Assembly: GCA_030425485.1 (NCBI GenBank) | Contig: JAUIAM010000002.1 | Location: 1 to 64,000 of the forward strand | Reading direction: 5' to 3' | Length of the DNA: 64,000 nucleotides | Origin: Verrucomicrobiia bacterium | GTDB lineage: Bacteria > Verrucomicrobiota > Verrucomicrobiia > Opitutales > Cerasicoccaceae | The notes under the pieces: model-generated | What the model saw: only the letters and a program-made list of their open reading frames with translations | The model's database searches: none | Told to the model about the DNA's origin: nothing | Part shown: positions 28,446 through 59,433 of the stretch, one piece after another | Layout: each line of letters opens with the position of its first letter | Numbering within the stretch: position 1 is the first letter of the stretch | Position numbers and translations under genes: made by a program

Positions 28446-28464
28446 TAAATTACCGAAACCTTAT

Positions 28465-42527: not shown

Positions 42528-42535
42528 TGTATACA
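42528..42535. promoter_or_regulatory. TGTATACA palindrome, site 1
   Basis: A perfect 8 bp palindrome (context ATGTATACAC) in the gap between the sialidase and the SGNH hydrolase. It is one of six exact copies, all outside annotated gene bodies except for the one covering a start codon. Confidence 0.6.
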
Positions 42536-42775
42536 CCTAGGTGTGTGAAGAGTATGCTGTCAACTACTTATTAGAAATTATGGCATACTAACGCATCTAC
42601 ATTCATAGCAGCCATCGCCATACAATAAATGGCTTCAGCGAGAAGCTATACCCCACATCCCATAAATCCCTTGAAGACTATAACGCGCATTATCTAGGCC
42701 GTGCGCGTTAGCAGCCACTTATCTACGAGCTTACGCTTGACAACATATGAAAAAGCAAAAGCATAAAACATACTC

Positions 42776-43600
42776 ATGTATACACACGGTCACCCCCCTT
42801 CCTTTACTGATAAATTATTTTCATGCTTCCCCACTTATCTTGGCCGGGGAATTCGCCCTCTGGCAATCCTGGCAATCGGCCTGACCACAGGGCTATCTGC
42901 GAAGAACCACTTACCGTCCGCCTCCGAGCCGGTAATCAAGCCCCTACCCTATCAAGCGCGCTTTCTCGAATTGCACCATTCATTTCTGGATCGCGCCAAA
43001 GAGGGGCCCATTGATCTACTCTTCCTCGGTGATTCTATCACCTACCAGTGGTCGCGCCACTCTGAAATCTGGGAGGAATACTACGCGCAGTACGCCCCCG
43101 CCAACTTCGGAATAGCGGGCGACGCAACCCAGCAAGTACTATGGCGAATCGAAAACGGAGAACTATACCGTATCCAGCCACGGGTCGTTGTTCTCTTGAT
43201 TGGCACCAACAACACGGGCTCTTACACCGCAGATGAAATACTTGCTGCCAACACAAAGATCGTCGAGCGAATCCATGAGAAATTGCCCGATACAAAGGTA
43301 TTGCTATTGGCGATTTTCCCCCGAGGCCCACGTAGTTTCGATAAAAACGGTATCCCACGTGATGATGGCATAACCCGTATGGCCGTAATTAATGAAGTCA
43401 ATCGTGGCCTAGCCAAACTCGATAACGGCGATAGCGTCAGATTTCTTGACATCGGCTCGGTATTCACCGGACCAGATGGCAAAATCCCCGAAGAACTGAT
43501 GTATGACCAACTGCATCTCACCAATCAAGGATACAGGCGATGGGCCGAAGCGATGAATCCCCTTCTGACTGAGATGATGCAGTCATCAGTCATAGACTGA
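42776..43600 (+). CDS. SGNH/GDSL-type esterase (platelet-activating-factor acetylhydrolase-like)
   Basis: A 274-residue hydrolase. The catalytic Ser is in LLFLGDSITYQW (Ser 87). Asn is in VVLLIGTNNTGS and the Asp/His pair in YDQLHLTNQGYRRW near the C-terminus; a Gly in NFGIAGDATQQVLW completes the SGNH set. An N-terminal hydrophobic segment (PLAILAIGLTTGLSA) looks like a signal peptide, so the enzyme is exported. Members of this group deacetylate sugars or hydrolyse acyl esters on glycans. The start ATG 42776 is embedded in the TGTATACA box at 42777; no other ATG lies near. It probably removes acyl or acetyl groups from the polysaccharide handled by the neighbouring sialidase and propeller proteins. 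Confidence 0.88.
   Translation: MYTHGHPPSFTDKLFSCFPTYLGRGIRPLAILAIGLTTGLSAKNHLPSASEPVIKPLPYQARFLELHHSFLDRAKEGPIDLLFLGDSITYQWSRHSEIWEEYYAQYAPANFGIAGDATQQVLWRIENGELYRIQPRVVVLLIGTNNTGSYTADEILAANTKIVERIHEKLPDTKVLLLAIFPRGPRSFDKNGIPRDDGITRMAVINEVNRGLAKLDNGDSVRFLDIGSVFTGPDGKIPEELMYDQLHLTNQGYRRWAEAMNPLLTEMMQSSVID
42777..42784. promoter_or_regulatory. TGTATACA palindrome, site 2, overlapping the SGNH start codon
   Basis: The palindrome directly overlaps the ATG of the SGNH hydrolase, so a protein bound here would block initiation or the promoter. Context ATGTATACAC. Confidence 0.55.
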
Positions 43601-43726
43601 TTCACTGTTACGTACTGGGCGGTTTCTTCAAATGATACCATTGCTATCTATGATTGATAGACGGCTGCCTGGGGCAGGCAGCTCTACCCGGCCCGCTGAC
43701 TTTATCATTTTCATGGGAAGACGCTC

Positions 43727-43892
43727 CTAGTGTACCGTTAGCCAAGTTCATTGAATAAGTTAATAGCCGCAAAAGGCACAAAAAACACAAAAGGGCCTTA
43801 GGCATCGCCTGAGATGAAGCTCAAATCTTAAGCCCTCTGCGTACTTTGCGCGCTTTGCGTGAACTATTTTAGATAGGAACTAAGCTAACACG
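43727..43892 (+). repeat. dispersed intergenic repeat, copy 2
   Basis: Begins CTAGTGTACCGTTAGCC and ends AACTAAGCTAACACG. Ends GTTAGCCAAGTTC and GAACTAAGCTAAC are imperfect inverted repeats of each other (11 of 13). The interior CTCTGCGTACTTTGCGCGC matches copy 1 near 36.7 kb. A 10 bp direct repeat ACGCTCCTAG flanks it (43721 and 43890). This is the best-preserved of the two copies. It has no coding potential. Confidence 0.65.
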
Positions 43893-43895
43893 CTC

Positions 43896-44062
43896 CTAGG
43901 CTGTATTTGCAAAATACGGAACGAGCAGCCAAACATGATTTTTAAGGCTAAACTGCGGGCTTCGAACCGAGGCAAATCCAGATTTGTCGAGGTGAGAACA
44001 CGCAGTTTAGACCAAAAAGAAGCGAGGATGCGACATTGAGCTATTTTGAAAACACGGCCTAG
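43896..44062 (+). mobile_element. 167 bp MITE-like element
   Basis: Bounded by imperfect terminal inverted repeats: CTAGGCTGTATTTGCAAAAT at the left and, on the other strand at the right, CTAGGCCGTGTTTTCAAAAT (17 of 20 identical). An internal 9 bp inverted pair TAAACTGCG / CGCAGTTTA (43949 and 44001) and a CAAATCCAGATTTG hairpin lie inside. It directly abuts the dispersed repeat copy 2. No transposase is seen in the window. CTAG at both ends may be part of the inverted repeat or the target duplication. Confidence 0.6.
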
Positions 44063-44139
44063 AGCTTATCGGGCATACATAGATTGGTATAGCTCAGCAA
44101 ATTGGAGGCATGTACTTCAAACCGACACCACCATCGCGA

Positions 44140-45318
44140 TCAGCGATATAATTTTAAAAACAAGGCAGTATCATTCCAAACCAGACTGGGTGAGAAGTGC
44201 GAGTTGAACCCGACGAAGTCGACCTCTAAATGATCAAGGCTGGATGGCGATGGTCCGCAGCCACTCTTGTATTCAATAAGTTTGATCGAGTCGTGAAATC
44301 CAGAATAAGGCAAGGCAGATCCATCGACCTGCAATCTAGCCCCTGGTTGGGTAAATAAAATCGCCTGGCTCGCCGTCACTGTGGTGAGGTCGACTGGATT
44401 GAAATCATCCCCTTCGCCAAGTTGGAATTCAAGCGTACCGTTGCCGCCAACCTCCCAAGCTTGGCTTTGCCCCCTAACGTTTGCCCTGGAGCCCACAGTC
44501 AATATGCCTGATCCACCGGCATCGGCTAAATCCTTATCTCGCCCCACTTTCACATTTGCGGTCAAAGTCCCTCCTTTGATCGTCGCCACCCCCACGGGGG
44601 AGTTTTCAATATTACGGGCATTGCCCACTGAAAAATAGTAATGAACATCGCGCAGCCCGTCAGTGACCGTCAGCGATCCGCCCGTTTGCTCGAAGATTCC
44701 ATTGCGACTATGAATGCTTTTGACCAAAGCACCGACAAAGAAATTTGCATTATCATTGCGGTTCAACTGCGAATTAGTTCCCGTAGCCACATAAACATCG
44801 CCCCCTTCGATGCTCATCTTTCCAGTCGCATCCACCCCAATGCCCAGATGAATCCCACTAGTCGTGACGATCGTCCCGGAAGTAATGCGCAAGTGTCCGC
44901 TGGAGTAGTCACCCACTCCCACCTGGATGCCACCTCCCTTTTCAGAAGATGTGCTAAAATGTCCCCCGTCAATATGTATCAAGCCTCTGCCTTGTGGTCC
45001 AAGAGCAACTTGGTGGGCACCGATCATGGTATTGGCCGCATTTATCCCACCAGATGAAAGAATCAATGTGCCACCCTCCGCATGGTTGCCGACATTCACC
45101 CTTGCGTGCGAGGTACCTTTCTCGCTTTTGACCACCGAATAACCGTCAAAAATCCGAGCGACCGAATTATCCGTAGGAACGGAGCTAGAGTCCCAAGTCG
45201 TAGGTTCATCCCACCCTCCACTGGATACGGCCTGTTGGGCTTGCAGGGGCAGCCCACAGAAGCTCAAGGCAGCCATCAGTTGAATTGGAAAATAAGTCAA
45301 GGTGCATTTAGATTTCAT
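44140..45318 (-). CDS. beta-helix autotransporter-repeat type surface protein, no sorting tail
   Basis: A 392-residue exported protein with a signal peptide (MAALSFCGLPLQAQ). The body from ~30 to 330 is a repetitive right-handed beta-helix-like stretch with recurring GG-x-L/I-x-I/V-x-x-G units (GGTLILSSGGINAANTMIG, GHLRITSGTIVTTSG, GKMSIEGGDVYVATG, GGSLTVTDG). This pattern is seen in Verrucomicrobia PEP-CTERM and autotransporter-like proteins. Unlike its neighbour at 45722 it ends WNDTALFLKLYR, with no PEP-CTERM motif or membrane segment. It is probably secreted or loosely attached. It resembles that neighbour closely in repeat style and in the WTDTEMLL/WNDTALFL near the end, so it is likely a shortened paralogue. 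Confidence 0.82.
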   Translation of the reverse strand: MKSKCTLTYFPIQLMAALSFCGLPLQAQQAVSSGGWDEPTTWDSSSVPTDNSVARIFDGYSVVKSEKGTSHARVNVGNHAEGGTLILSSGGINAANTMIGAHQVALGPQGRGLIHIDGGHFSTSSEKGGGIQVGVGDYSSGHLRITSGTIVTTSGIHLGIGVDATGKMSIEGGDVYVATGTNSQLNRNDNANFFVGALVKSIHSRNGIFEQTGGSLTVTDGLRDVHYYFSVGNARNIENSPVGVATIKGGTLTANVKVGRDKDLADAGGSGILTVGSRANVRGQSQAWEVGGNGTLEFQLGEGDDFNPVDLTTVTASQAILFTQPGARLQVDGSALPYSGFHDSIKLIEYKSGCGPSPSSLDHLEVDFVGFNSHFSPSLVWNDTALFLKLYR

Positions 45319-45721: not shown

Positions 45722-46963
45722 TTAAGATGAGCTGACCGAACGACGGCGACGTGCCGCAACCAAGCCCAGAGTCGCCAGCCCAAAGATCAATGCTTTTGCA
45801 GAAGGCTCCGGAATCATTACCGTCAAGAGCATCTCGGTATCCGTCCAATCGACACTCGGCATTAAAGCCGGATCGAAGTTAGCAAAGTCGATCACAATAT
45901 TGCCCAAGCTAAATTCAGTCGGCCCTCTGCCACTGCCATAAGTAGCCAAGACAATCGTGCCATCGAAATCAGACGCCAGATTGCTGCCGTCAATTGTGAT
46001 CAACGACCCAACGTCAAAACTCAACGCAACTCCGGACGTCGCTGCCGTCAAGTCGATCGCGTTAAAACTGGTGGTGCTGCCGAGCAGAAACTCCAATTCA
46101 CCATCCCCACCAATCATCAATGTCGAATCCGACGCGATAGCTGAAAGATTTGCGTTTGGACCGATGGATAGCTTGCCCACGCCATTCACGCCGTTTGACG
46201 TATTTCCGAGTATGATATTCCCATTCACCGAAGTGAAACCGCCTGTCAACGAGGCTGTACCAGTTGGGTTGTGGGTAGCACTCGTCGCATTACCGATCCG
46301 CAGATTACGATCAATTACCACGAAGCCCGAAGTCTGATTGAACACACCCTGATTGGCATTCGGAGAAACACGCCCAACGTAAAAATCGGTATCCACTTGC
46401 AGCGATCCACCACTCACATTCAGAGTGCCCGTCGATCCAACGCCACTTCCCAGAGATAAATTCGAGAGATTTTGAATAACTCCGGAACCGCTCAGATTCA
46501 CAGTGCCGTTGGAATTGGTGCCATAACCAGCCGTCAACCAGCCAACACCATCGCCATCCAGTGTCCCCCCTGTCACGTTCAACACCCCAATCGAATCGGT
46601 CTCAGCACCAATCCGCATGGCACCCGACCCATTGGCCGCCGTTTGCAGGCTCCCGCCGGAAATAGTCAACGTTCCGTTGCGGGTAAAGGTATTCCCGCTT
46701 CCATCAAAGTCACTCCCGATTTCAAGATTACCGTAACGCCCTTCGTCGTCATCGCCGATGTAATCGACGGAATATCCATTGCCAATGGCAATCGTATCCC
46801 CTTGCCCTGGATCACCTGCCGGGCTCCACGTAATCCCAGGCCAGTCACCACTGCCCTGAGCAGACTTATCAACAGCGTGAACAGTTGAAGAAATAAAGCA
46901 ACTCGCGACTCCGAGCAGTAGAAAGGTGGGAGATGAGGCGGACAGTTGTGACTTATACTTCAT
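45722..46963 (-). CDS. beta-helix repeat protein with PEP-CTERM tail
   Basis: A 413-residue exported protein. A signal peptide is followed by a beta-helix-like repeat region (residues ~40-330): GTLTISGGSLQTAANGSGAM, GVLNVTGGTLDGDG, GTVNLSGSGVIQNLSNLSLG, GTLNVSGGSLQVDTD. Its C-terminus is MIPEPSAKALIFGLATLGLV plus AARRRR, a PEP-CTERM sorting signal. It is a surface or matrix protein anchored or released by exosortase. The neighbour at 44140 has the same repeat style but no sorting signal. A TGTATACA box lies 71 bases upstream (47034), and a strong terminator lies downstream. Confidence 0.9.
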   Translation of the reverse strand: MKYKSQLSASSPTFLLLGVASCFISSTVHAVDKSAQGSGDWPGITWSPAGDPGQGDTIAIGNGYSVDYIGDDDEGRYGNLEIGSDFDGSGNTFTRNGTLTISGGSLQTAANGSGAMRIGAETDSIGVLNVTGGTLDGDGVGWLTAGYGTNSNGTVNLSGSGVIQNLSNLSLGSGVGSTGTLNVSGGSLQVDTDFYVGRVSPNANQGVFNQTSGFVVIDRNLRIGNATSATHNPTGTASLTGGFTSVNGNIILGNTSNGVNGVGKLSIGPNANLSAIASDSTLMIGGDGELEFLLGSTTSFNAIDLTAATSGVALSFDVGSLITIDGSNLASDFDGTIVLATYGSGRGPTEFSLGNIVIDFANFDPALMPSVDWTDTEMLLTVMIPEPSAKALIFGLATLGLVAARRRRSVSSS

Positions 46964-47453
46964 AGCAGGGACCTTTAGTTAGTTTTATATTACGCACCAT
47001 AAATACGATACTGAATCCAGTAATGTATTTACATGTATACATTAAATCTTATGAGGCAAATTAGGTCAAGTTCTTTATAGAAAAAATTTGCGATGTACCT
47101 TTTCCATGCACGTGAGGATGTAAAAACTGCAAACACAGCTAGCCAGCATCTGCAATCGTCGAAAATATACTTGCGAGCCAATCCAACACACCGTAGTGTA
47201 TACCCCGATATGCACACTAAGTTTCAGTTCTCTTCCCCTGCCCCCTCCAGGATGAATGCCTTTACTCCCAATTGGTATCTTGGGCTGGAGCGCGAGCAGT
47301 ACTTTGGCCGGGGATGACCCGTAGCTCATAAGCGACCTGCCGGAGAAACGGGATCGAGGCAAAGAACCTATTCGAAGCTAAACCGACATTTCGAAGAAAG
47401 CAAAATCACAGGCCACCGATCGGCCTTCCCACTCACAAAATAGCGAATACTCC
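46964..47453. other. 490 bp divergent intergenic region
   Basis: Between the 413-residue PEP-CTERM gene and the alpha/beta hydrolase gene. It is AT-rich in its left part and contains TGTATACA at 47034 and the variant TGTATACC at 47197. No convincing coding sequence. Confidence 0.55.
47034..47041. promoter_or_regulatory. TGTATACA palindrome, site 3
   Basis: Perfect copy in context ATGTATACAT, 71 bases upstream of the PEP-CTERM beta-helix gene start. A near-copy TGTATACC lies at 47197, on the side of the hydrolase gene. Confidence 0.6.
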
Positions 47454-48788
47454 ATGAAACAGAAACTTTCCAATAGAATCACATCCAAGGCCATGAGTGC
47501 TAGTGCGGCCTTGCTGATCTTAATACTCTTGGTCCTGGGCGCATCGCAGCCCGCCGCAGCGCAGGAAAGATCCGGACCCTGGCCCGAACAGCGTGCGCAG
47601 ATCGAGCGCGGATGGCTTGAACTGCTGGGAGACTTCCCCTCGGAAATCCCAGAATTGAAGCCGACGATACGGAAAGTCACCTTCGAGCCAGGCTGCCCTT
47701 CTGAACGCCTGTCCAAGCCTCAGCTTCAGGTTCTCAAAGAACAGATGGCGGAAGAGGACGGCAGCATCGAACGCTACCATGTCAGCTTTCAGACCGAAGC
47801 AGACGACCGTGTGACCGCATGGCTATTAGTACCCAAAGAAGCCTTTCAACAAGAAACCCCGGCCATGATTTGCATTCACAGCACAACGAAAGGGGCCGGC
47901 AAGGATCAAGTGATCGGACTGTCTGGCAAAACCGCACTCAATCTGCCGGACACCAGCGAGGGTGGCAGATCCTACGGCCTGTACCTGGCTCGGCACGGCT
48001 ACGTGACCTTGAGCATTGATCTGCTGACCGACGGCGAGCGTGTCGAGCCCGGCGAAGCTCCTCTGCAGTCACGACCGTTTTATGAACGCAATCCCGAGTG
48101 GTCTATCGTCGGCAAGAATACCTGGGACATCATGCGCAGTGTCGATTTTCTCGAGACCCTAGATTTCGTCGACTCCAATCACATCGGATGCATCGGACTC
48201 TCGCTGGGCGGGCACACCGCTGTTTTCGCTGGTGCCTTCGAGCCGAGAATCGCGGCTACTGTGAGCATCGGTGGCGTTTTAGACTGGCACCGGGGGACTG
48301 AACATTGGTCCCGGGAAAAAGGGAAATACATTTACATCAAGAAATACCGCCCCTACATCGACAATCCCGATCTCCAAGTACCAGCGGACTTCGACGAACT
48401 TATGATGATGGTCGCACCACGCCCGCTGCTGATTCTCTCCAGCGAATGGGAGTTTTACAACCGCCGTGGGCTTCTGAAAAAATGCCTCGAGGTGGCACAA
48501 GTTTATCTCAACTGGAAAGATACCGAGGGCCTACCCAGTGTGTTGGAGGCGAGGAAGAACCGGAAAAGTTATGCCAAAAGCTTGAGTTACTACAAAGAGC
48601 GCAGTGACTACTCGCCCGAAAAAGTGGATAGAGATATCGGCCTACTCGGTGCTGGCGACTGCTTTACGTGGTTTTCCTATCCTGGCGGCCACAGTTTCCC
48701 GCCGGTGGCGAGGGCTTATACATTCGCCTGGCTCGACCGCTGGCTTGATCGCGACAACAGCTGGGAAGGCAAATACGCCCGCCCATAG
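47454..48788 (+). CDS. secreted alpha/beta hydrolase (dienelactone hydrolase/acetyl esterase-like)
   Basis: A 444-residue exported hydrolase. A signal peptide (LLILILLVLGASQPAAAQ) precedes the alpha/beta-hydrolase fold. The nucleophile Ser sits in GCIGLSLGGHTAVF (Ser 250), and a late His in SYPGGHSFPPVARAYTF fits the catalytic histidine. An Asp or Glu in a strand before it would complete the triad. The fold with a long N-terminal segment (ERYHVSFQTEADDRVTAWLL) resembles secreted acetyl- or feruloyl-type esterases near polysaccharide enzymes. It is followed at 53 bases by the second propeller protein, so both may be one unit. Substrate unknown; deacylation of a plant or algal polysaccharide is likely by context. 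Confidence 0.82.
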   Translation: MKQKLSNRITSKAMSASAALLILILLVLGASQPAAAQERSGPWPEQRAQIERGWLELLGDFPSEIPELKPTIRKVTFEPGCPSERLSKPQLQVLKEQMAEEDGSIERYHVSFQTEADDRVTAWLLVPKEAFQQETPAMICIHSTTKGAGKDQVIGLSGKTALNLPDTSEGGRSYGLYLARHGYVTLSIDLLTDGERVEPGEAPLQSRPFYERNPEWSIVGKNTWDIMRSVDFLETLDFVDSNHIGCIGLSLGGHTAVFAGAFEPRIAATVSIGGVLDWHRGTEHWSREKGKYIYIKKYRPYIDNPDLQVPADFDELMMMVAPRPLLILSSEWEFYNRRGLLKKCLEVAQVYLNWKDTEGLPSVLEARKNRKSYAKSLSYYKERSDYSPEKVDRDIGLLGAGDCFTWFSYPGGHSFPPVARAYTFAWLDRWLDRDNSWEGKYARP

Positions 48789-48841
48789 CACTGTCCTATC
48801 AGGCAATTACTTCACAATTATACCAAAATAAAGCAAGACAC

Positions 48842-50251
48842 ATGCACTGGCCCAGCTTACTGAGTTTGTCACTGACGATCGTCGCCTTCACTTCACTGGT
48901 CGCCCAGCCCATTTATATTGGATCGCAGCGCGAACTCTTTGTAGACGATTACCTCGTTGAATCTCTTACCGATGTGGATCTGCGACTCCACGCCCCAAGA
49001 AAAGCGCCTCGTGCCGAATCACCGCTACCCGTCCGACACGCGATGACTGTAATCAAGGACGGCGATTATTACCGTGCGTATTACCGTGAGGCTGACCCCA
49101 GCTACAAAGGGCCTATCCATTCAGGGCATCCCGGTGAAACGCTTTGCTACGCGGAGAGTCTGGACGGCCATAACTGGCGGCTGCCCAATCTCGGATTGCA
49201 TGAAGTGGGCGGGACAATAGAGAACAACGCGATTTTAACCAATATGCCGCCCTATTTGCACAACTTCATGCCCTTTCTGGATACCCGTCCCGGAGTCGAT
49301 CCAGAGGAACGTTACAAGGCGGTGGCTGGATACCCCGGCAAGGGGGATAAGCGGGGCACGACCATGGAAGGAATCGGACTCTACGGCTTTGTCTCTCCAG
49401 ACGGAATCAATTGGACGATGCAGGGAGAGATTATCCCCTACCAACCGGAATGGCGCCATGCCTTTGACTCGGCCAATGTGGCCTTCTGGTCCGAGGCAGA
49501 AAACAAATACGTCTGTTACTTCCGCACCTGGACGCCCGGCACCCGCCTGCGTACCGTTGCGAGAAGCACATCATCGGATTTCATCGAGTGGAGTGAGCCC
49601 GTGGAAATGGCTCCCAACCTACCCGGCGAACATCTGTATACCACCATGACACATCCCTACGTCCGTGCACCTCACATCTACATCGCACTCCCAACACGCT
49701 TCGTCCCTGGAGAAAAGGATTCCGCCGATGAGGTGAGGAAGAACACCACCGATGTCCTTTTCATGTCCAGCCGTGCTGGCTCCAACCACTATGACCGACT
49801 CTTCACCGAAGCCTTCATCCGACCGGGGCTAGATTCAAAGCAATGGACCAACCGGGCCAACTTCGTCGCCAACAATGTCCTGCAAACCAGTCCTACAGAA
49901 TTGTCGATCTATCACCGCAGCGGCGACCGCTACGTCATCCGGACGGACGGTTTTATTTCCGTCCACGCCGGAGCCAAGGCTGGCAGCCTGACGACAAAGC
50001 CCCTTGTTTTCACGGGAGAGATGCTGGAATTGAATTACTCCACAAGTGCAAACGGATTTGTCCAGGTGGAACTCATCGATCTCGAAGACAATGTCATCGC
50101 CACAAGCAAACGCATCACAGGTGACGCTATCGATGAACCGGTAGAATGGATTAACCTCATAGACATCCTGGATTTTTCCGATCAACCAGTCCGGCTGCGA
50201 TTTTCGATGAAGGAAGCCGACCTCTATGCATATCGGTTCTATGATGAATAG
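48842..50251 (+). CDS. secreted beta-propeller (GH43/GH32-like fold) protein, copy 2
   Basis: A 469-residue exported protein, paralogous to the one at 37714-39174. Signal peptide MHWPSLLSLSLTIVAFTSLV to AQP. It shares IGSQRELFVDDYLVES near the start, DGDYYRAYYREADPSYKGP, FMPFLDTRPGVDPEERYKAVAGYPG, NVAFWSEAENKYVCYFRTW and FTEAFIRPGLDSKQW. Blade-like strands recur about every 60-70 residues. The paralogue shows the same order, including the conserved SIYHRSGDRYVIRTDGF stretch. It may hydrolyse arabinosides, fructosides or similar, but catalytic residues are not assignable from sequence alone. It follows the alpha/beta hydrolase gene and is convergent with the FAD/Fe-S dehydrogenase gene. Confidence 0.82.
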   Translation: MHWPSLLSLSLTIVAFTSLVAQPIYIGSQRELFVDDYLVESLTDVDLRLHAPRKAPRAESPLPVRHAMTVIKDGDYYRAYYREADPSYKGPIHSGHPGETLCYAESLDGHNWRLPNLGLHEVGGTIENNAILTNMPPYLHNFMPFLDTRPGVDPEERYKAVAGYPGKGDKRGTTMEGIGLYGFVSPDGINWTMQGEIIPYQPEWRHAFDSANVAFWSEAENKYVCYFRTWTPGTRLRTVARSTSSDFIEWSEPVEMAPNLPGEHLYTTMTHPYVRAPHIYIALPTRFVPGEKDSADEVRKNTTDVLFMSSRAGSNHYDRLFTEAFIRPGLDSKQWTNRANFVANNVLQTSPTELSIYHRSGDRYVIRTDGFISVHAGAKAGSLTTKPLVFTGEMLELNYSTSANGFVQVELIDLEDNVIATSKRITGDAIDEPVEWINLIDILDFSDQPVRLRFSMKEADLYAYRFYDE

Positions 50252-50356
50252 CTGACAACAACTGGAACTAGGCTGTGTATGCCGACCAGCGACCAGATAC
50301 TTGAGGTCATATGTCAGATTTGTCAGTTCGAGATTTCTAAAAAAACAGATGGTTTG

Positions 50357-53314
50357 TTATTCGCATTCCCGTAATGCGGCATGCAAAATTTCAACCGGAT
50401 GCTGCGCTATCCGCCCGGTGCCATCATGAATTTGGTGGCGGCAGGATGTACCTGGTGCCGCAATAATTGTCTCGCTGTCGGCAGACATAATGGCGGGGAA
50501 CAACACCAAATTTCCGATTTGCTGAGAGAGCGAATAATGCTCTTTTTCGTAGCCAAACGAACCTGCCATGCCGCAACATCCACTGGGGATCGGTTCCACT
50601 GTATAATTCGCAGGTATCTGAAGTGCCTCGATGCTACCGGACTGGCCCACAATCGCTTTTTGAAAGCAATGTCCATGCAGTTTGATGTGTCTTTTTTTGT
50701 CTGTAAATGCATTGCTTAATATCCGCCCTGCAGCCGCTTCCCTGGCGATAAAATCTTCCACCATCATACAATGATCTGCCATTGCTCTGGCCTTGTCTTT
50801 GAGTTCAGGCTCCGCCAAATCCAGTGCCTCGTCGCGAAAGGTGAGCACGCCAGAGGGCTCAACTCCTACTAAAGGCTGCTCGGAGCTGATTTTTCCCCCC
50901 AAGGCACGCAAATTTCGATTGATGATTTTTTTAGCCTGCCGAACCAGCCCTTTCGATAGCCAGGTTCGGCCGCTTTCTCCACAAATCGGCAACTCAACGG
51001 AATAGCCCAGACGCTCCAATAAATCGACTGCCTTAACCCCAATCTCAACATCATTAAAATGGGTAAACTCGTCATTAAAGAGCCAAACCTTGCCCACCTG
51101 ACCTGCATTTGGATGTGGCACATGATCCTTAAACCAGCGAGCCAAAGTTTGCCGAGGCAATAGCGGAATCGTTCGATCAGGGTGAAAACCGACGGCACGA
51201 TTTAGAAGACGCCGCATCCATTTGGTTCCAAAGAGAGCGTTCCACGCCCAGGGAGCCAGGGAGGCCAATTTCTGGGAGTGGGCAAAGGTGGCGATCATCC
51301 TTGCCCGCAAGGGAACCCCATTGGCGTCGTAATAATGCTGCATGAACTCAGCTTTGAGCTTGGCCATATCGACCGTCGAAGGACATTCCTTCTTACAGCC
51401 CTTACAAGAAAGACAAAGATCGAGCACCTCCTTAACATCCGGATTGTCAAAAACACTCTTGCGTGCGTTGGCAGGCCCTTTTGTAAGCGCATCACGCAAG
51501 AGGTTCGCCCGCGCCCTTGTGGTATCTTTCTCATCGCGGGTGCCCATGTAGCTGGGACACATGGTTCCACCGGCCAATTGGGTCTTACGGCAATCGCCTG
51601 AGCCGTTGCACATCTCCGCCGCACCCAGCATTCCATTCGATGCAGACCAATCAAAAATAGTCTCGGGTTCCTTCGTAACCTGCCCTGGGGTATAGCGCAA
51701 GTTGGTATTCATGGCAGGTGTATTAATGATTTTATTTGGATTGAGTATCCCTGCTGGATCCCAGGTGTTTTTAACCGACTGGATCAAAGCGTAATTCTTC
51801 GAGCCAATCATGCTCTCAAGGAACTCACCACGAAGTCGGCCATCGCCATGCTCACCGGAAAGGGAGCCACGGTATTCGCGCACCAACTCGGCTACAGCCT
51901 GAGCCACTTCCCGGAACATCCGGTTCCCCTCATCCGTTTTCAAATTGATGATCGGGCGGAGATGAATTTCCCCCGAACCGGCATGGGCGTAATGGACACA
52001 ACTGAGGCCAAATCGTTGTTTCAGCCGCAGGCTGAACTCTGCGATATAGCTGGGCAGGTCTTCTACCCGCACGCAGGTATCCTCAATCACAGGAACCGGT
52101 TTAGCATCTCCCGGCATATTGGACAGAAGCCCCAAACCCGCCTTGCGGAGGTTCCAAATCTTCACTGTATCCGCCCCAAAGAGGACCGGATAGGCGTAAC
52201 CAAGCCCCGCCTCTCGCATATCGCGCTCCAGCTGGTCGGTCACTTCCAGGACTTCCGAGCGGTTGTTTTTGCGAATTTCAGTGATCAGGACAGCACCTGG
52301 CTTTCCCTCAATAAAAAAGCGATTTTCGCGGTGTTCGATACTTCGTTCGGTACAGTCGAGAATGTGGTGATCGATCAGCTCACAGGCGTAGCATTCATAG
52401 CGTACGGCAATCTGAGTCGCCCGAAGCGCTTCATCGATGGTCTTAAAGTGCGCGCAATGTAGACCTGTCGACTCAGGAGGAAGCGGATTACAATGCAGTT
52501 TCATCTCCAGGACAAAGCAGAGCGTTCCCTCACTACCTGCGATGAGCTTGCTGAAATTGAAAGCTCGATCAGAATCCGAGTCAAAACAGTCAGCATCCAT
52601 AAGGCAATCGAGCGCGTAGCCGGTGTTGCGTCTGGGAATATCCGGGTGCGGAAATTTTTTGAGAATTTCCTGGCGATTCTCCGAATCTGAAAGCATACCA
52701 CGTGTTTCTCGGTAAATCTGGGCCTCCAGCGAATTCCCTTCGCACTTTGCATCGAATTCATGCTTCGAAAGCGGGCCGAAAACCGCCTTCGATCCGTCGG
52801 AAAGCAGAGCAGTCACTTCGATGGTATGCTCACGCGTCGAACCATACATGACCGAGTTCGAGCCGCAGGAATTATTCCCGAGCATACCGCCGACCATGGC
52901 CCGGTTTTGCGTGGATGTTTCGGGGCCGAATAAGATTCCGTGAGGCCGGAGCGCATCATTCAATTCGTTCCGGATGACACCAGGTTGACAGCGCACCCAT
53001 CCCTCCGCCGAATTAATTTCCAGTATCCTTGTAAAATGCCGGGAGACATCTACTACGATTCCATTGCCAACCACCTGTCCGGCGAGGGATGTCCCGGCCG
53101 TGCGGGGAATCACTCCGACTTTATGATCTCTGGCAAATTGCAGGATTTCACACAGATCCTGCTCGCTTCGAGGCAATGCCACAGCCAACGGCATTTCTTG
53201 ATAGGAAGACGCATCGGTTGCATAAATACGCCGCATCAATACGGAATGGTGCAGCTCCCCTTCCAGCTTCTGATTTAAGGCTTCCAGATCACTTAATTCC
53301 GGTGACTTCTTCAT
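50357..53314 (-). CDS. FAD-linked 2-hydroxyacid dehydrogenase with Fe-S and CCG domains (YdiJ-like)
   Basis: A 985-residue cytoplasmic or membrane-associated oxidase. Residues ~30-260 are a PCMH-type FAD-binding domain (GVIPRTAGTSLAGQVVG and MVGGMLGNNSCGSNSVMYGS). A C-terminal FAD-linked region includes HAGSGEIHLRPII and GSLSGEHGDGRLRGEF. Then comes a ferredoxin-like pair, CNGSGDCRKTQLAGGTMC and CLSCKGCKKECPS. Last are CCG-type heterodisulfide-like motifs, LHGHCFQKA and PSGCCGMAGSFGYEKEHY. The fused order is that of YdiJ, a D-2-hydroxyglutarate or D-lactate oxidising enzyme. ATG 53314 was chosen because the longer frame starts with GTG and gives a poor N-terminus. It is co-directional with the symporter, SDR and other genes that could yield lactate or 2-hydroxyacids from a deoxysugar. 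Confidence 0.9.
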   Translation of the reverse strand: MKKSPELSDLEALNQKLEGELHHSVLMRRIYATDASSYQEMPLAVALPRSEQDLCEILQFARDHKVGVIPRTAGTSLAGQVVGNGIVVDVSRHFTRILEINSAEGWVRCQPGVIRNELNDALRPHGILFGPETSTQNRAMVGGMLGNNSCGSNSVMYGSTREHTIEVTALLSDGSKAVFGPLSKHEFDAKCEGNSLEAQIYRETRGMLSDSENRQEILKKFPHPDIPRRNTGYALDCLMDADCFDSDSDRAFNFSKLIAGSEGTLCFVLEMKLHCNPLPPESTGLHCAHFKTIDEALRATQIAVRYECYACELIDHHILDCTERSIEHRENRFFIEGKPGAVLITEIRKNNRSEVLEVTDQLERDMREAGLGYAYPVLFGADTVKIWNLRKAGLGLLSNMPGDAKPVPVIEDTCVRVEDLPSYIAEFSLRLKQRFGLSCVHYAHAGSGEIHLRPIINLKTDEGNRMFREVAQAVAELVREYRGSLSGEHGDGRLRGEFLESMIGSKNYALIQSVKNTWDPAGILNPNKIINTPAMNTNLRYTPGQVTKEPETIFDWSASNGMLGAAEMCNGSGDCRKTQLAGGTMCPSYMGTRDEKDTTRARANLLRDALTKGPANARKSVFDNPDVKEVLDLCLSCKGCKKECPSTVDMAKLKAEFMQHYYDANGVPLRARMIATFAHSQKLASLAPWAWNALFGTKWMRRLLNRAVGFHPDRTIPLLPRQTLARWFKDHVPHPNAGQVGKVWLFNDEFTHFNDVEIGVKAVDLLERLGYSVELPICGESGRTWLSKGLVRQAKKIINRNLRALGGKISSEQPLVGVEPSGVLTFRDEALDLAEPELKDKARAMADHCMMVEDFIAREAAAGRILSNAFTDKKRHIKLHGHCFQKAIVGQSGSIEALQIPANYTVEPIPSGCCGMAGSFGYEKEHYSLSQQIGNLVLFPAIMSADSETIIAAPGTSCRHQIHDGTGRIAQHPVEILHAALRECE

Positions 53315-53385
53315 AAATAATTTGCGTTGCGCTGTACCCCCGAAGGGCAAACAAAAAACCCACTTCACCTCCCTTGTAAGCTCAC

Positions 53386-54867
53386 TTATTCAGGCAACTT
53401 ACCTCGCACTCCAACTCCCATAATCAAGGCTGTCCCAAACATTCCAATGACTGCCGTCCACATGGAGCTAATAATAGGATACCACGGATAAGCAGCATTG
53501 AGTTGAGGAGAAAAGGCAGCACATGATGCAAACAATGCTCCCCCTATCAAACCGCTGATTACGTATTTGCCCGATAATTTCAATGGAAGGACAGCAAAAA
53601 CCAACGCAATTCCGAGCGGGCCAACAAACAATCCGAGTAGCCGCTGCGACATATCAAAAATTTGTCCAAGATGAGCGACCAGTCCAGCGGATAAAGTGGC
53701 CGTTATTCCAATCAGGAGGCTCAGCACACGAGCCAAGATAAGGCGCGCTTTTTCGGATTGTTTTTCTTTCCAGCTATTGGGTAACAAATCCATTTCAATC
53801 GCTCCGGAGAGAGCGTTAATTCCGCTGGTCATACTACTCATGGTTGCAGCCAACAATGCAGCGAGGATCATTCCCGCAACGCCCACAGGCAACTGGCTGG
53901 CCACGTAGTAAGGGAAATACTGATCCGTGTTAGCCGGCAAACTCGCGGGATCTTGAAAAAGGCTCCAAGCCTTCAAACATACTCCAATCGCACAAAGCAC
54001 ACTTAACACGATGAATACCCCGATACAGTTTACCAGATAGGAGTGCTTAACCTCTTCAATAGAAGCCGAAGCCATATAGCGTTGTAGTGACATCTGGTCA
54101 CCAAGATACATGGCTGAAGAGGCAAATAGTCCGCCAATAACTGCCGTCCATGTTGTCACCTTCACCGAAGGGTCTAGAGAGAAATCAAAGAGCCGAAGCG
54201 AATCGGTATCCTTCAGCATACGCCAGGTTTCTTGATACGAAACTGGCAAATTATAGATAATGAAGCCAATCGTAATCAGACAGCCTGCAATGATGACTAG
54301 CATCTGCATCGCATCAGTCACCATAACCCCACGCAAGCCACCAAAAGCCGAATAGACCGTACTGATCAATCCAACAAGCAATACCACCTGCCAGAAATAA
54401 TCATCACCCAAGCCGGTGGCACCTAGAATGGCGATGGTCGGCGCGTAGATGAGCACCGCCATCCAGCCCAGGCGCAAAATCACATAAATGAAGCTGGCCA
54501 GCTTGCGTACACTTGCGCCAAAGCGAATCTCCAAAATCTCATAAGGTGATCGCCATTGCCTACGAATAAATAAAGGTACGAAAAAATAACAAATCAGGTA
54601 ATACTTAAAGATAAGGGTGATAGTTGTAATAAATATAACAAGCCCATGATTAATAACAATGCTTGGATATGCTAACAGCGAAATCCCACTAAAGAAAGTA
54701 GCCGCTATACTTAACCCAACAATCGTGCTGCCGAGAAACCCCGGCAAAGTTCCCTTGGAAATATAAAAATCGTCGGTCTCCTCCTGCTTACCTCGCGCCA
54801 GAATCCCAACGGCAGCTGTAAAAAGAAGAAACAGAACGATCAGGATGTAGTCAATCGCATGCAGCAT
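53386..54867 (-). CDS. sodium:solute symporter (SSS family)
   Basis: A 493-residue transporter of normal SSS length with about 13 membrane segments. It begins MLHAIDYILIVLFLLFTAAVG. The conserved SSS regions LSIAATFFSGISLLAYPS, RFGASVRKLASFIYVILRLG and ALLAATMSSMTSGINALSG are all present. It probably imports a sugar or monocarboxylate with sodium. It lies between the FAD/Fe-S dehydrogenase gene (71 bases downstream) and the SDR gene (upstream), all on the minus strand, and so appears to be the uptake system of that catabolic unit. Confidence 0.92.
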   Translation of the reverse strand: MLHAIDYILIVLFLLFTAAVGILARGKQEETDDFYISKGTLPGFLGSTIVGLSIAATFFSGISLLAYPSIVINHGLVIFITTITLIFKYYLICYFFVPLFIRRQWRSPYEILEIRFGASVRKLASFIYVILRLGWMAVLIYAPTIAILGATGLGDDYFWQVVLLVGLISTVYSAFGGLRGVMVTDAMQMLVIIAGCLITIGFIIYNLPVSYQETWRMLKDTDSLRLFDFSLDPSVKVTTWTAVIGGLFASSAMYLGDQMSLQRYMASASIEEVKHSYLVNCIGVFIVLSVLCAIGVCLKAWSLFQDPASLPANTDQYFPYYVASQLPVGVAGMILAALLAATMSSMTSGINALSGAIEMDLLPNSWKEKQSEKARLILARVLSLLIGITATLSAGLVAHLGQIFDMSQRLLGLFVGPLGIALVFAVLPLKLSGKYVISGLIGGALFASCAAFSPQLNAAYPWYPIISSMWTAVIGMFGTALIMGVGVRGKLPE

Positions 54868-54887
54868 AGCAAAAAATGTAGCTTAGA

Positions 54888-55673
54888 TTATTTGGCTGTA
54901 TAGCCGCCATCTACTGGAATGATGGCTCCGGTAACGTAAGCGGAGGCCTCGGACGCGAGGAAGACGATAGCACCCTTCAAATCCGAATCATTCGCCAACC
55001 GCCCCAGTTGGGTACGGTCTGAGTAATTTTTAACAAACTGCTCGGGTTGCTCCGGTGATTGCAAACCACCGGGATTGATACAATTACAACGGACACCGAA
55101 ACGCCCAAAATAAGAGCCGCAAAAGCGCGTGTAATTGACCATCCCTCCTTTATGAAAAAAATACTCAGGCGACCAACCTGAATTCATATCCGTACCATCG
55201 TAATTGTGATGCTCCACCCCTGTCACCCCCATCATGGAGCCAATATTAATGATCGAACCGGCACCCTTTTGAACCATCACTTTACCCATGGTCCGGGTAA
55301 TCGCATGCAAGCCGGATGCGTTGATACGCCAACTACGGTTGAAATCCTCGAGCGGATCATCCCATTTTCCCGTGACCCTAAGAACGGCATTGTTGACCAA
55401 TACATCGACTGTTCCCGCGCGCTCTAGCAAAGTGTCACGCAAGGTCAGGATCGAAGCTTCGCTCTCCAAATCCAGTGGTAACGCAGTGACTTTTTCGCCC
55501 TTCTCACGGTGTTCGCGTGCGACTGCCTCCAAGCCCGCCACGTTTCGCGAAGCGATGTAAGTATCAGCTCCGGCCTCCGCCAGCGCCGCAACAATTTGGC
55601 GACCATATTTACCTGCTCCACCGCTCAACAGCGCTACTTTTCCTTCCAAAGAAAACAATTTACGAACGTGCAT
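54888..55673 (-). CDS. SDR family oxidoreductase (probable sugar or sugar-acid dehydrogenase)
   Basis: A 261-residue classical SDR. Glycine-rich nucleotide motif LSGGAGKYGRQIVAAL; NNAVL structural motif; catalytic Ser 146 in IINIGSMMG, Tyr 171 and Lys 175 in PEYFFHKGGM. The end YVTGAIIPVDGGYTAK is the usual SDR finish. Related enzymes dehydrogenate L-fucose or 2-keto-3-deoxy-L-fuconate, and the setting of a symporter, an FAD/Fe-S dehydrogenase, a lactonase-type amidohydrolase and an HpcH aldolase supports such a role. It is first in the minus-strand unit. A TGTATACA box lies 37 bases upstream of its start. Confidence 0.9.
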   Translation of the reverse strand: MHVRKLFSLEGKVALLSGGAGKYGRQIVAALAEAGADTYIASRNVAGLEAVAREHREKGEKVTALPLDLESEASILTLRDTLLERAGTVDVLVNNAVLRVTGKWDDPLEDFNRSWRINASGLHAITRTMGKVMVQKGAGSIINIGSMMGVTGVEHHNYDGTDMNSGWSPEYFFHKGGMVNYTRFCGSYFGRFGVRCNCINPGGLQSPEQPEQFVKNYSDRTQLGRLANDSDLKGAIVFLASEASAYVTGAIIPVDGGYTAK

Positions 55674-55709
55674 AATTAAAGTTGAATAGAGTTAACTCGA
55701 CAGCCTCTG

Positions 55710-55717
55710 TGTATACA
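55710..55717. promoter_or_regulatory. TGTATACA palindrome, site 4
   Basis: Perfect copy in context GTGTATACAT, 37 bases upstream of the SDR start at 55673. Confidence 0.65.
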
Positions 55718-55974
55718 TAAACATACACAAAGAAAAGCCACCTACTGTCAATTTAATTTTGATCCGAACACCGCGCACCTCAACGCTGAGCCAGCTATAT
55801 CATATTTTGCAGCCGGGATCCTTCTGCGTAAAATCCATCTTCCCAATCTTCATGGAGTGATTTATAGCCTGGGTAAATATTTAATTCAAGACTTGAATTA
55901 AATATTTACATTCGGACAATTTCACACTTATATATCGATCAATTATTACGTGTGGACAAACCACCCAAGCGGCG

Positions 55975-55982
55975 TGTATACA
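55975..55982. promoter_or_regulatory. TGTATACA palindrome, site 5
   Basis: Perfect copy in context GTGTATACAC, 24 bases upstream of the aldo/keto reductase start at 56006. Confidence 0.65.
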
Positions 55983-56005
55983 CACTAATACGCAAAAAGT
56001 GTACG

Positions 56006-56962
56006 ATGACCACAATACATGCAAAATCCACCCCTGATCCCATACGCAGACAAGCCCCGGCGTATTCCAGATTGACCCTGGGTACAGTCCAGTTCGGCTT
56101 GGCATACGGGATCGCCAATCAAAGCGGTAAACCGGACGAGAAAACCTGCCGGGAAATCATAGCCGAAGCCTATGCCGCAGGCATCCGCTGCTTCGATACA
56201 GCCGCCGCGTATGGCGAAAGTGAAAGCGTGCTGGGTCGTGCAATGACGGATCTGAAGATATCGGAATCGGTTACTGTGGTAAGCAAATGTCGGCCGCTAG
56301 ACCCTAAAATTTCCGACCCGAAGACGATCCGCTTGCAATTGGAAGCATCCATCGCCGATTCGATTAAACGCCTAAGAGTCGAGCATATCCCGGTCTTTCT
56401 CTTCCACCGCGATGCGGATTTGCCTTGGATTGAGGTTTTGGCTGCATTGCGTGAACGAGGGTTAATCCATCGCATTGGCATTTCCGTCGACACCGCCAGT
56501 GGAATCGAAGCAGCGGTCAAAGAGCCGCAGGTCGAGGCCATACAACTACCGCATAACCTCTTCGACCACCGATTTAGCGGAACGCAGTATTTTAAAGAAG
56601 AAGAGAGCGAACGCCGTCTACTGTTTGCACGCAGCGCTTTTCTACAGGGCTTACTCCTCATGCCTGAGGCACGCATTCCAGTCGGACTCCAGTCCGTAAT
56701 ACCAACCCGTCGGCGCGTGGAGCAAATCGCTGCCGCTGCTGGCCTGAGCATGCCGGAACTCTGCTTGCGCTACAGCCTTAGCTTCCCTGCGGTGGACAGT
56801 GTCTTGATCGGTGTCGACAATGTGAAGCAGCTCAAAGAGAATGTCGCCATGGCCGCACGTGGCCCCCTACCGGCCGATGTACTGCAACAAATCAAGCAAG
56901 CCGTACCCGACTTCCCCGAATCCATCGTCCGTCCTTCGCAATGGCATAAAAGCAATGGGTAA
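56006..56962 (+). CDS. aldo/keto reductase (sugar dehydrogenase-like)
   Basis: A 318-residue AKR-type TIM barrel. The catalytic tetrad is visible as Asp 64 and Tyr 69 (CFDTAAAYGESESVLG), Lys 94 (VVSKCR) and His 134 (FLFHRD). The C-terminal NADP/NAD-binding stretch includes SVLIGVDNVKQLKENV. AKR enzymes of this type, such as D-threo-aldose 1-dehydrogenase or L-fucose dehydrogenase, oxidise the anomeric carbon of deoxy-sugars to lactones, which fits the lactonase-like amidohydrolase next to it. I used ATG 56006 as start; the longer frame back to 55952 covers the TGTATACA box. It is convergent with the amidohydrolase gene. Confidence 0.88.
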   Translation: MTTIHAKSTPDPIRRQAPAYSRLTLGTVQFGLAYGIANQSGKPDEKTCREIIAEAYAAGIRCFDTAAAYGESESVLGRAMTDLKISESVTVVSKCRPLDPKISDPKTIRLQLEASIADSIKRLRVEHIPVFLFHRDADLPWIEVLAALRERGLIHRIGISVDTASGIEAAVKEPQVEAIQLPHNLFDHRFSGTQYFKEEESERRLLFARSAFLQGLLLMPEARIPVGLQSVIPTRRRVEQIAAAAGLSMPELCLRYSLSFPAVDSVLIGVDNVKQLKENVAMAARGPLPADVLQQIKQAVPDFPESIVRPSQWHKSNG

Positions 56963-57129
56963 TGCCAGCGGCTGGCCCTGCTGACATAAAGTTGCCCACA
57001 CCAGCGCTTGCGAGGCATGATCACAGCGGTCAAATCCAGCCTGGCTGGAGGAAGGTATTTTGCTCGTACGTCGCTTTCAGATCATTGTCCAGCGAATCAA
57101 ATTTTTACTAGACCTGATAATCGATTGAT

Positions 57130-58083
57130 TCAATGCGAGTCAACAGACTTGCCCAACCATTTAAGCGTGTTAAGATGGCTAACCTTGGCTCTCAATGTTT
57201 CCGGTAACGCATTGAGTACTGCAACCTCCTCACGGTAGCTGCTGCGCATTTGCAATTTAGCATCTTCGTATGAATAGAACGGTGCGTCGCTGCCCCATAT
57301 CAATGAATCCGGGAAGGCTTCAGCCAAGTCCTGAAGAACTCGGGCGGGATCATTATAATCCGAGGGGAAACGCTCTTGCGGAATAGCAACCGCTTTCTTG
57401 TTATCCACTGCGCAGGCACAATGAATAATGTGCGCCGAACAGTCGAACCAAGTGTTGGGCAGCTCGGCTACGCGTTTCAGGCTTTCGTGATGAAAGCGGC
57501 AAGAATGTGCCAGAATAAAGCGGACATCTGGATTGGCCTGGGCTACAGCCAGAATGTCAGAGCACTGCGACCAAATATCATCCGGCGCGATGCTGGAATG
57601 AATCAAAAAGGGCAAATCGTGGGCCTTGGCGTATTCCACCATACAACTACCTTCCTCAAGTAAGGAGCGTATGGGTGACTGCAGGATGGTGGGTTGAATT
57701 TTAATACCATGAACGGGATATTCCGCGGGCAGTTTTTCCCACTCTTTAACCTGAGCCGCTGGCATACGCATTGGGTCAGCCATGAGAAAAGGCCAAAGCC
57801 GACTACGACGCTCCGGAACCGAACGCATAATGTCTTCGCAGAGACGCCGATTCTCAAATGCGTACGGAACATGAGGTGTATCTTTCGGCAATTCGATACG
57901 ATTATAGCGCAAGCCCTCAATATCTAAGGCCATGTATGCAACGAAAGGAAAAACCACCCAGGCATCGATGCCAGAATCTCCTGCTTCGTTGAACAAGCGC
58001 TCAAGGTCGAGAGCATAAGGGGACCAGTTCTGCAAGTAGAACAGCGGGTCGACCCCGATGTGGACGTGGTTGTCGATTCTCAT
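57130..58083 (-). CDS. amidohydrolase-family protein (sugar-lactonase-like)
   Basis: A 317-residue metal-dependent hydrolase of the amidohydrolase-2 group. The N-terminal HVH is in MRIDNHVHIGVD, later metal or active-site His residues are in LPFLIHSSIAPDDIW and RFILAHSCRFHHES, and the Asp is in LIWGSDAPFYSYEDA near the end. This family includes L-fuconolactonase and L-rhamnonolactonase, as well as decarboxylases and other lactonases. Position between an aldo/keto reductase and an HpcH aldolase makes a sugar lactonase likely. No export signal is present. A TGTATACA box lies about 210 bases upstream. Confidence 0.85.
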   Translation of the reverse strand: MRIDNHVHIGVDPLFYLQNWSPYALDLERLFNEAGDSGIDAWVVFPFVAYMALDIEGLRYNRIELPKDTPHVPYAFENRRLCEDIMRSVPERRSRLWPFLMADPMRMPAAQVKEWEKLPAEYPVHGIKIQPTILQSPIRSLLEEGSCMVEYAKAHDLPFLIHSSIAPDDIWSQCSDILAVAQANPDVRFILAHSCRFHHESLKRVAELPNTWFDCSAHIIHCACAVDNKKAVAIPQERFPSDYNDPARVLQDLAEAFPDSLIWGSDAPFYSYEDAKLQMRSSYREEVAVLNALPETLRAKVSHLNTLKWLGKSVDSH

Positions 58084-58495
58084 GGTTCGGTTACTGATTG
58101 CGGACTTTTGTCATACTTAGCACAGCTACAATGACTTCACAGCTTACAGCAGGTGCCTTGTTTCGCGGATTTCGACGCAGCGGTAAAAGGCGATGGCTCA
58201 AATGGGCTTCTTCTGGGGTAGCCGCCCTGGCAAGCAGTGCACTCGGTAACTCAGCTTCAGCTAGCCACCCCGCCCTGCCGGAGAACATCCATGTATACAT
58301 ATGGCGATGTTAGTTTTTATCAAGAATTATATTCACATTGCTTCGTGCAAGAGTTCTGTGAATCAAACTTTTTAGGTATAAGAGCGACACAACCGCCTTC
58401 CCCCCGCCGAGAACTGTGAGCTATCACTAAGCAAAATTCAAACGGCTCAATTGCTCATCTCATAAGCATAGAGACCATCCAAGATAATTCATAGG
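58084..58495. other. 412 bp intergenic region
   Basis: Between the amidohydrolase start and the aldolase stop. It holds the TGTATACA box at 58292 and a GC-rich patch (58120-58290) flanked by AT-rich DNA. Short frames are present on both strands, but none looks like a gene. Confidence 0.5.
58292..58299. promoter_or_regulatory. TGTATACA palindrome, site 6
   Basis: Perfect copy in context ATGTATACAT, about 210 bases upstream of the amidohydrolase start. Confidence 0.55.
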
Positions 58496-59308
58496 TTAGC
58501 GACCGTATATCCCCTCACATTCAGCCGGCGGCACCTCGACCTCAGCGAACGCACTCGCCAATGACTTACAATAATTGGTCAATCCCACAACATCTGCACC
58601 GACATTGATAAAGCGGTAGCCAAGGTCGATAAGCTCAGTAAGATTGGACGGACTACCAACCGTGCCTGCAAATTTACCATGCTTAAGAGCAACCTCTGCC
58701 ACAAGCTTGCGTGCATATATTAAGCGGGGATCATCAAACATACCTGGCGCTCCAATGGCGTGACTAAAATCGCCAGGACCAAAAAACAGCATATCAACCC
58801 CAGGCAGGGCGGCGATTGCGTCCAACTCCTCTAAAGGCTCAGGGTCCTCAATCTGCAAAGCCACAAAGCGCTCTTGGTTGGCGGTTGCAAGGTACTGCTT
58901 GAAAGGAATCCCACAATACGCACCATCGGCATTTCCTCCGTCAACTGGTCGCATACCAAGCGGTTGAAAACGGGTCATGCGCACCACGTTCTTGGCATCC
59001 TCCAAACCCATGCAGTGCGGCACCATAATCCCAGCCGCATCCATTTCCAGTGGACGTATGTAATCACTGTAACTGCCACGAGGGACTCGCACCAAAACAT
59101 CGACGTCATGCGCCTTAGCCGCCCAAACCATAGATTCGATATCGCCCATCCCGTTCGGCACATGCTCCAGGTCGGGCCAAAGACAATCGACCCCGGACAT
59201 CGCAGCAATCTCCGCAACCCGAGCGTCTTTTAAGTTAAGCTTAAAACTGGAAACGACTTCACCCGAACGCAATTTTCTCAATACACGACTAGGTCTCATT
59301 TTTTTCAT
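58496..59308 (-). CDS. HpcH/HpaI family aldolase
   Basis: A 270-residue class II aldolase. The family landmarks are present: an acidic metal-binding pair in VDCLWPDLEHVPNG and VALQIEDPEPLEEL, the MVPHCMGLEDAKNVV strand, and MLFFGPGDFSHAIGAPG with the active-site Gly/Asp. The N-terminus has KLRSGEVVSSFKLNLKDARV, like 2-keto-3-deoxy acid aldolases. Such enzymes cleave 2-keto-3-deoxy-L-rhamnonate or -fuconate to pyruvate and lactaldehyde. In this gene set that would feed lactate or lactaldehyde oxidation. A TGTATGCA variant (59329) and the divergent Gfo/Idh/MocA gene lie just upstream. Confidence 0.9.
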   Translation of the reverse strand: MKKMRPSRVLRKLRSGEVVSSFKLNLKDARVAEIAAMSGVDCLWPDLEHVPNGMGDIESMVWAAKAHDVDVLVRVPRGSYSDYIRPLEMDAAGIMVPHCMGLEDAKNVVRMTRFQPLGMRPVDGGNADGAYCGIPFKQYLATANQERFVALQIEDPEPLEELDAIAALPGVDMLFFGPGDFSHAIGAPGMFDDPRLIYARKLVAEVALKHGKFAGTVGSPSNLTELIDLGYRFINVGADVVGLTNYCKSLASAFAEVEVPPAECEGIYGR

Positions 59309-59328
59309 AATTTAGTTTCGCCAACTAG

Positions 59329-59336
59329 TGTATGCA
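59329..59336. promoter_or_regulatory. TGTATGCA, variant of the TGTATACA palindrome
   Basis: One mismatch to the box, 21 bases upstream of the HpcH/HpaI aldolase start and in the divergent gap to the oxidoreductase gene. Confidence 0.4.
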
Positions 59337-59433
59337 CGATAATACATGCTTGAGTCAAGACAGCTTTTGCGTCAATTCTTCAATTCAGCCACTCATTACC
59401 AAAACAAGAATACCAAAGAACTATACATTCCCA

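Follow-up and report, generated by a model that had tools for sequence, protein, structure and literature searches.

The palindromic TGTATACA boxes that cluster in the 64-kb window (the whole stretch of DNA that was analysed, on contig C40) are very probably the operators of a single FCD-domain GntR repressor, similar to the VanR group, which is encoded at C40:65004-65732. The operator set itself is real and well supported by computation. The switch is of a well-known kind and the regulon itself apparently undescribed: a search of the open literature found no published description of it, an absence that is weak evidence.

Palindromic boxes and the genes beside them

As described in the initial annotation, the window contains six perfect copies of TGTATACA, all of which fit RTGTATACAY. 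Dinucleotide shuffles yield a chance expectation of 0.42 copies (six or more in none of 100 shuffles) and a trinucleotide model one of 0.53 (P = 2e-5), and no other of the 256 8-bp palindromes is over-represented in the window as strongly as TGTATACA (runner-up P 5e-3). The first 40 kb had appeared free of boxes by eye, and indeed zero perfect copies occur in the first 42.5 kb. The cluster extends past the window end to a seventh perfect copy at C40:64665. The whole genome (G000; 3.81 Mb, 62 contigs) holds 19 copies, compared with 6 of the reversed control word; nine of these are on C40, and seven fall between 42528 and 64665 (22 kb); the binomial probability that a particular 22-kb stretch holds seven of the 19 is 1e-11. 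The placement in gaps or over a start likewise proved correct: four window boxes are in gaps and two overlap the opening codons of the longest ORF (42776, 55952), and the non-coding share of 36-66 kb is only about 14%. Three near-copies (40321, 47197, 59329) are one-mismatch copies, as previously listed; further ones at 12841, 17968, 19042 and 41947, absent from that list, all lie within ORFs. The boxes and their surroundings are as follows.

42528-42535, perfect, ATGTATACAC: 200 bp upstream of the BNR protein gene (40412-42328, minus strand); next box 249 bp away
42777-42784, perfect, ATGTATACAC: overlapping the initial codons of the SGNH esterase ORF (42776-43600, plus strand)
47034-47041, perfect, ATGTATACAT: 71 bp upstream of the PEP-CTERM gene (45722-46963, minus strand), in the divergent gap with the CE15-like esterase gene at 47454
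55710-55717, perfect, GTGTATACAT: 37 bp upstream of the SDR gene (54888-55673, minus strand) that heads the SDR, SSF and FAD/FeS oxidase run
55975-55982, perfect, GTGTATACAC: 265 bp from the box at 55710
58292-58299, perfect, ATGTATACAT: 209 bp upstream of the amidohydrolase gene (57130-58083, minus strand)
40321-40328, one mismatch, TGTATACC: 11 bp upstream of the FGE-sulfatase-domain gene (39183-40310, minus strand); weaker evidence
47197-47204, one mismatch, TGTATACC: 163 bp from the box at 47034; weak matrix score
59329-59336, one mismatch, TGTATGCA: between the divergent aldolase (58496-59308, minus strand) and Gfo/Idh-like (59332, plus strand) genes
C40:64665, perfect, outside the window: divergent gap between the pilin-like gene and the regulator gene, 340 bp from the regulator start
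57 bp before the regulator ATG (C40:65004), one mismatch, TGCATACA

The box at 55975 probably precedes the start codon of the aldo/keto reductase gene, provided that the in-frame ATG at 56006 is the true one; a later start, at 59434, is also possible for the Gfo/Idh-like gene. The candidate target genes of the island are the following.

40412-42328, minus strand: BNR-repeat (sialidase-like) protein with laminin-G-like domain
42776-43600, plus strand: SGNH/GDSL esterase, 44% identical to the orthologue at the G005 locus
45722-46963, minus strand: secreted repeat protein with PEP-CTERM-like C-terminus, read from the sequence; no Pfam match
47454-48788, plus strand: glucuronoyl/acetyl-xylan esterase-like hydrolase
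50357-53368, minus strand: FAD-linked oxidase with FeS domains (D-2-hydroxyacid dehydrogenase type)
53386-54867, minus strand: sodium:solute symporter (SSF), 61% identical to the orthologue at the G030 locus
54888-55673, minus strand: SDR dehydrogenase, conserved core target
55952-56962, plus strand: aldo/keto reductase
57130-58083, minus strand: amidohydrolase_2, possibly a lactonase
58496-59308, minus strand: HpcH/HpaI aldolase, conserved core target; its orthologue adjoins the regulator in many relatives
59332-60387, plus strand: Gfo/Idh/MocA-like protein, conserved core target
60514-61446: partner of the pilin-like gene
61454-63985 in the window, full ORF C40:61454-64543, minus strand: pilin-like surface gene, 1029 aa, start beyond the window

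The probable regulator gene and its precedent

A Pfam search of the whole genome returned 21 GntR matches, one of them 1 kb past the window end.

C40:65004-65732, plus strand: FCD-type GntR regulator, 242 aa, GntR and FCD domains

Its N-terminal winged helix (PF00392, E 1.7e-18, residues 11-65) is followed by a C-terminal FCD domain (PF07729, E 3.9e-21, residues 76-216), and this combination places it in the FadR subfamily. In the FCD domain, D137, H141, H193 and H215, which we take to be the metal ligands of the FCD site, are invariant (alignment A1). The initial annotation had likened the half-site to that of FadR-type GntR regulators, among others, had named a regulator outside the window as a candidate and had advised to look for a box upstream of a GntR gene; the C40 gene agrees with all three, being preceded by the perfect box at 64665 and by TGCATACA. 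The box at 64665, however, fits the pilin-like gene equally well as target, which counts against its link to the regulator. The proposed resemblance to AraR, the hybrid GntR/LacI regulator of Bacillus subtilis, extends to the TGTA...TACA half-sites, which AraR has within a longer operator; it fails for the effector domain, which is LacI-type in AraR, whereas the C40 regulator has FCD in place of a sugar-binding LacI domain.

The order GT-AT-AC in TGTATACA conforms to the FCD/FadR operator form NyGT(N2-3)ACNy, the consensus of a survey of FadR-subfamily motifs in which Verrucomicrobiota are absent (PMC4494728). The surveyed regulons share with the present one the GT-2 nt-AC palindrome and the sugar- or acid-catabolic operons, but comprise other target genes (PMC4494728). 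The closest precedent comes from Agrobacterium fabrum Atu1419 (VanR group of the FCD subfamily), which was crystallised on ATGTATACAT and binds it in gel shifts too (PMC7797058; PDB 6z74, 6za0, 6za3, 6za7, 6zab). In Atu1419, Arg45 reads G3 and Thr46 reads A5, Ser44, Thr46 and Arg49 touch the backbone, and binding is lost when G3/C8 are changed; Atu1419 acts as a repressor and forms a tetramer that can bring together, by looping, two palindromes separated by 190 bp (PMC7797058). Although the two sequences are only distantly related (E 5e-11), helix 3 of the C40 regulator, SRTPVR, aligns with SRTPVR of 6z74, and all the contacting Ser, Arg, Thr and Arg residues are there (Ser44, Arg45, Thr46 and Arg49 align with S39, R40, T41 and R44). 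A point against the proposed reading is the wing tip, where the C40 regulator has Glu and Gly is usual in the subfamily. The two systems thus have in common (i) the identical 10-mer operator, (ii) the helix-3 Ser/Arg/Thr/Arg set, (iii) apparent autoregulation, and (iv) several palindromes per intergenic region.

Among the 17 GntR genes with the strongest matches, the recognition helix could be read in 16, the stretch of the remaining one being cut by a contig end. Just two of the 16, at C40:65034 (SRTPVR) and C56:71348 (SRTPMR), have an SRTPxR helix, and they are also the sole ones with a TGTATACA copy within 1.5 kb. One might therefore ask if the second of these FCD regulators, C56:70853-71629, is the main binder of the boxes, with one or both proteins controlling two loci. 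Its operon is preceded by a box, GTGTATACAC, which is conserved in G005; C56 also carries an alpha-L-fucosidase gene with a box. We nevertheless regard this as unlikely, since the two regulators each have a neighbouring gene set and box of their own, conserved separately, and since the window island is found together with C40-type regulators both in G030 and in many Opitutaceae. With genes for SSF, amidohydrolase, SDR, FAA hydrolase, Ldh_2 and alpha-L-fucosidase, the C56 locus resembles one for the breakdown of L-fucose that has a paralogous regulator and boxes of its own, and this regulator could bind some of the boxes of its C40 counterpart. Less probable still is control by the hybrid GntR/LacI protein at 10107-11225, which the initial annotation had also put forward, or by a LacI-family protein near 34206: both genes are within the window and a degenerate site, TGTATATA, is found upstream of the hybrid gene, but the hybrid's helix (NHLTIRQ) lacks the SRTPxR contacts, no TGTATACA occurs within 1.5 kb or even 30 kb of it, and the box motif tracks FCD regulators across phyla. 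The hybrid was hence rejected, and the FCD regulator on C40 is retained as the probable binder of the boxes.

Recurrence of the boxes in relatives

Relatives were found by an alignment-based search of genome contigs, a single-protein query having yielded none, and the pattern used to select their loci included SRTP. In the 33 Verrucomicrobiota loci that surround relatives of the regulator, TGTATACA occurs 33 times compared with 0.68 expected (z 29.8) and is the most enriched of the 256 8-bp palindromes (next best z 8.6). For 47 other loci, mostly of other phyla, the count is 55 versus 5.2 expected; as the loci had been chosen with an SRTP-containing pattern, this second result speaks for a broad pairing of SRTP helix and TGTATACA. 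In 17 of 32 loci, the regulator match is preceded by a perfect copy within 160 bp, mostly at a distance of 46-51 bp. When a matrix derived from the relatives' regulator promoters only was scanned over 140 kb of C40, the top seven hits were the six window sites and 64665.

Boxes likewise accompany orthologous units in other genera, in line with the comparison that the initial annotation had recommended. G030 (Opitutia bacterium UBA4506) encodes a 61% identical regulator orthologue with a box on either flank: the one at 116818 stands 25 bp ahead of the pilin-like orthologue, the one at 126003 stands 54 bp ahead of a gene run that includes orthologues of the symporter, the Gfo/Idh-like protein, the aldolase and the SDR. 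In G005 (Co_bin.226), which has a 35% regulator homologue, boxes precede a BNR protein gene, the pilin-like gene and, by 41 bp, the aldolase gene; one-mismatch boxes occur between the SDR gene and the regulator gene and at another BNR protein gene, and the variant TGTATGCA of 59329 is also present. The pilin-like gene and its partner hence have orthologues with a box in both genomes, and in another relative (L133) a box precedes a TonB-dependent receptor gene by 57 bp. In Opitutaceae, the core beside the regulator consists of the Gfo/Idh-like (59332) and HpcH/HpaI aldolase (58496) genes and one or two SDR genes (54888, 36894), in most cases transcribed divergently from the regulator gene. Three same-genus genomes gave no regulator orthologue at E 1e-25, and their box counts are 8, 4 and 1 versus 6, 6 and 7 for the controls (19 versus 6 in G000).

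A reading of the boxes as a repeat or a chance cluster devoid of a regulatory role, owing to a mobile element remnant or sequence bias, is most improbable: the motif is short and about half of its 19 genomic copies, probably background, are inside genes, but the flanks outside the 10 bp vary from copy to copy, the boxes recur at orthologous units of other genera, and TGTATACA ranks first among all palindromes both in the window and at the relatives' loci. The initial annotation would have abandoned the boxes if genome-wide they were no more frequent upstream than in coding DNA, or not conserved before orthologues; since they recur before orthologues and TGTATACA ranks first around relatives, the regulon withstands both objections, with the caveat of the copies in coding DNA.

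The proposed switch and its targets

From the computed sites, their positions and conservation and the helix match, we infer repression, an effector, looping between box pairs and a substrate. A dimer, perhaps a tetramer, of the C40 regulator would grip each 10-bp palindrome through S39, R40, T41 and R44 and, when bound, shut down almost all promoters across the 25-kb island: the BNR protein, the SGNH esterase, the PEP-CTERM protein and esterase, the SDR-symporter-oxidase run, the aldo/keto reductase, the amidohydrolase, the aldolase, the Gfo/Idh-like gene, the pilin-like gene and the regulator's own gene. The repressor may then be freed from the DNA when a carboxylated intermediate of the pathway, perhaps a 2-keto-3-deoxy-sugar acid, occupies the metal site of the FCD domain; by analogy with Atu1419, such relief of repression is the most likely mode. 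Atu1419 itself differs in controlling hydroxycinnamate degradation with a folate-type effector, and it is for Atu1419 that the tetramer has been demonstrated. Compared with 190 bp in Atu1419, box pairs in the island are 249, 265 and 282 bp apart, that is, 23.7, 25.2 and 26.9 helical turns, and since this phasing is not uniform, the spacings are compatible with looping and take it no further.

The window boxes extend the conserved core regulon to the BNR protein, SGNH esterase, PEP-CTERM protein, aldo/keto reductase and amidohydrolase. As surmised at the outset, surface enzymes and a catabolic pathway are tied together by boxes upstream of both kinds of genes. The sugar-catabolic role claimed at the outset is likely, but the 'sialidase' is a BNR-repeat match only. 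Judged by family names, the enzyme set suggests that a sugar is converted to a lactone and an acid, with subsequent cleavage of a 2-keto-3-deoxy acid. No sugar is named here because several island proteins have no match in Pfam, NCBIfam and PDB searches and because the aldolase at 58496-59308 falls between several known specificities, under all curated cut-offs.

It is tempting to speculate, though quite tentatively, that one repressor with paired operators and looping over 25 kb coordinates a pilin-like structure, PEP-CTERM-anchored proteins, surface esterases and a sugar-acid aldolase pathway, the pilin-like apparatus being part of glycan capture. A link between pilin and glycan pathway is plausible because, according to an excerpt of the report on another member of the Verrucomicrobiota, Verruconatronum alginivorum, an alginate-induced pseudopilin gene is co-induced with alginate genes; the excerpt describes no operator or regulator of the FCD-box type (PMC13274419). 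More generally, the regulon suggests that pilin-like genes and PEP-CTERM proteins act together with particular catabolic pathways.

Our analysis provides a concrete regulator, operator and target list for Verrucomicrobiota, the phylum missing from the survey of FadR-subfamily motifs (PMC4494728). The box in combination with the SRTPxR helix also offers a genomic handle for assigning genes, including those for proteins devoid of a Pfam match, to a glycan pathway. The main interest is in the target list, above all in the pilin-like gene, which has a box in three genera.

Related regulators and their boxes

On contig C56 of the source genome, another FCD-type GntR gene lies amid L-fucose-type catabolic genes (C56:65000-75300, L050), accompanied on the same contig by an alpha-L-fucosidase (C56:48141-50089, L049). 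The boxes at these C56 loci (L050/L049) are GTGTATACAC and CTGTATACAC, the first of which is kept in the related genome G005 at C15:44403.

A further, related GntR protein with the helix SRIPVR is encoded at C9:15297-15932 (L023). Since TGGTATACCA is found upstream of this gene, the comparison suggests that the Thr-to-Ile change in the helix goes along with GGTATACC in place of TGTATACA.

In a relative, a TonB-dependent receptor gene has a perfect box 57 bp upstream (L133:6239-6296).

Surface and secreted proteins

22426-32596, minus strand: gene run in which the gene at 29258-32596 is paralogous to the pilin-like one at 61454-64543
37714-39174: secreted protein, no Pfam match
48842-50251: secreted protein related to the preceding one, no Pfam match

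The paralogue shares 28% identity with the G030 homologue of the pilin-like gene. Homologues of the two secreted proteins are found repeatedly close to the regulator in Opitutaceae, and the pair possibly constitutes an undescribed glycan-active family.
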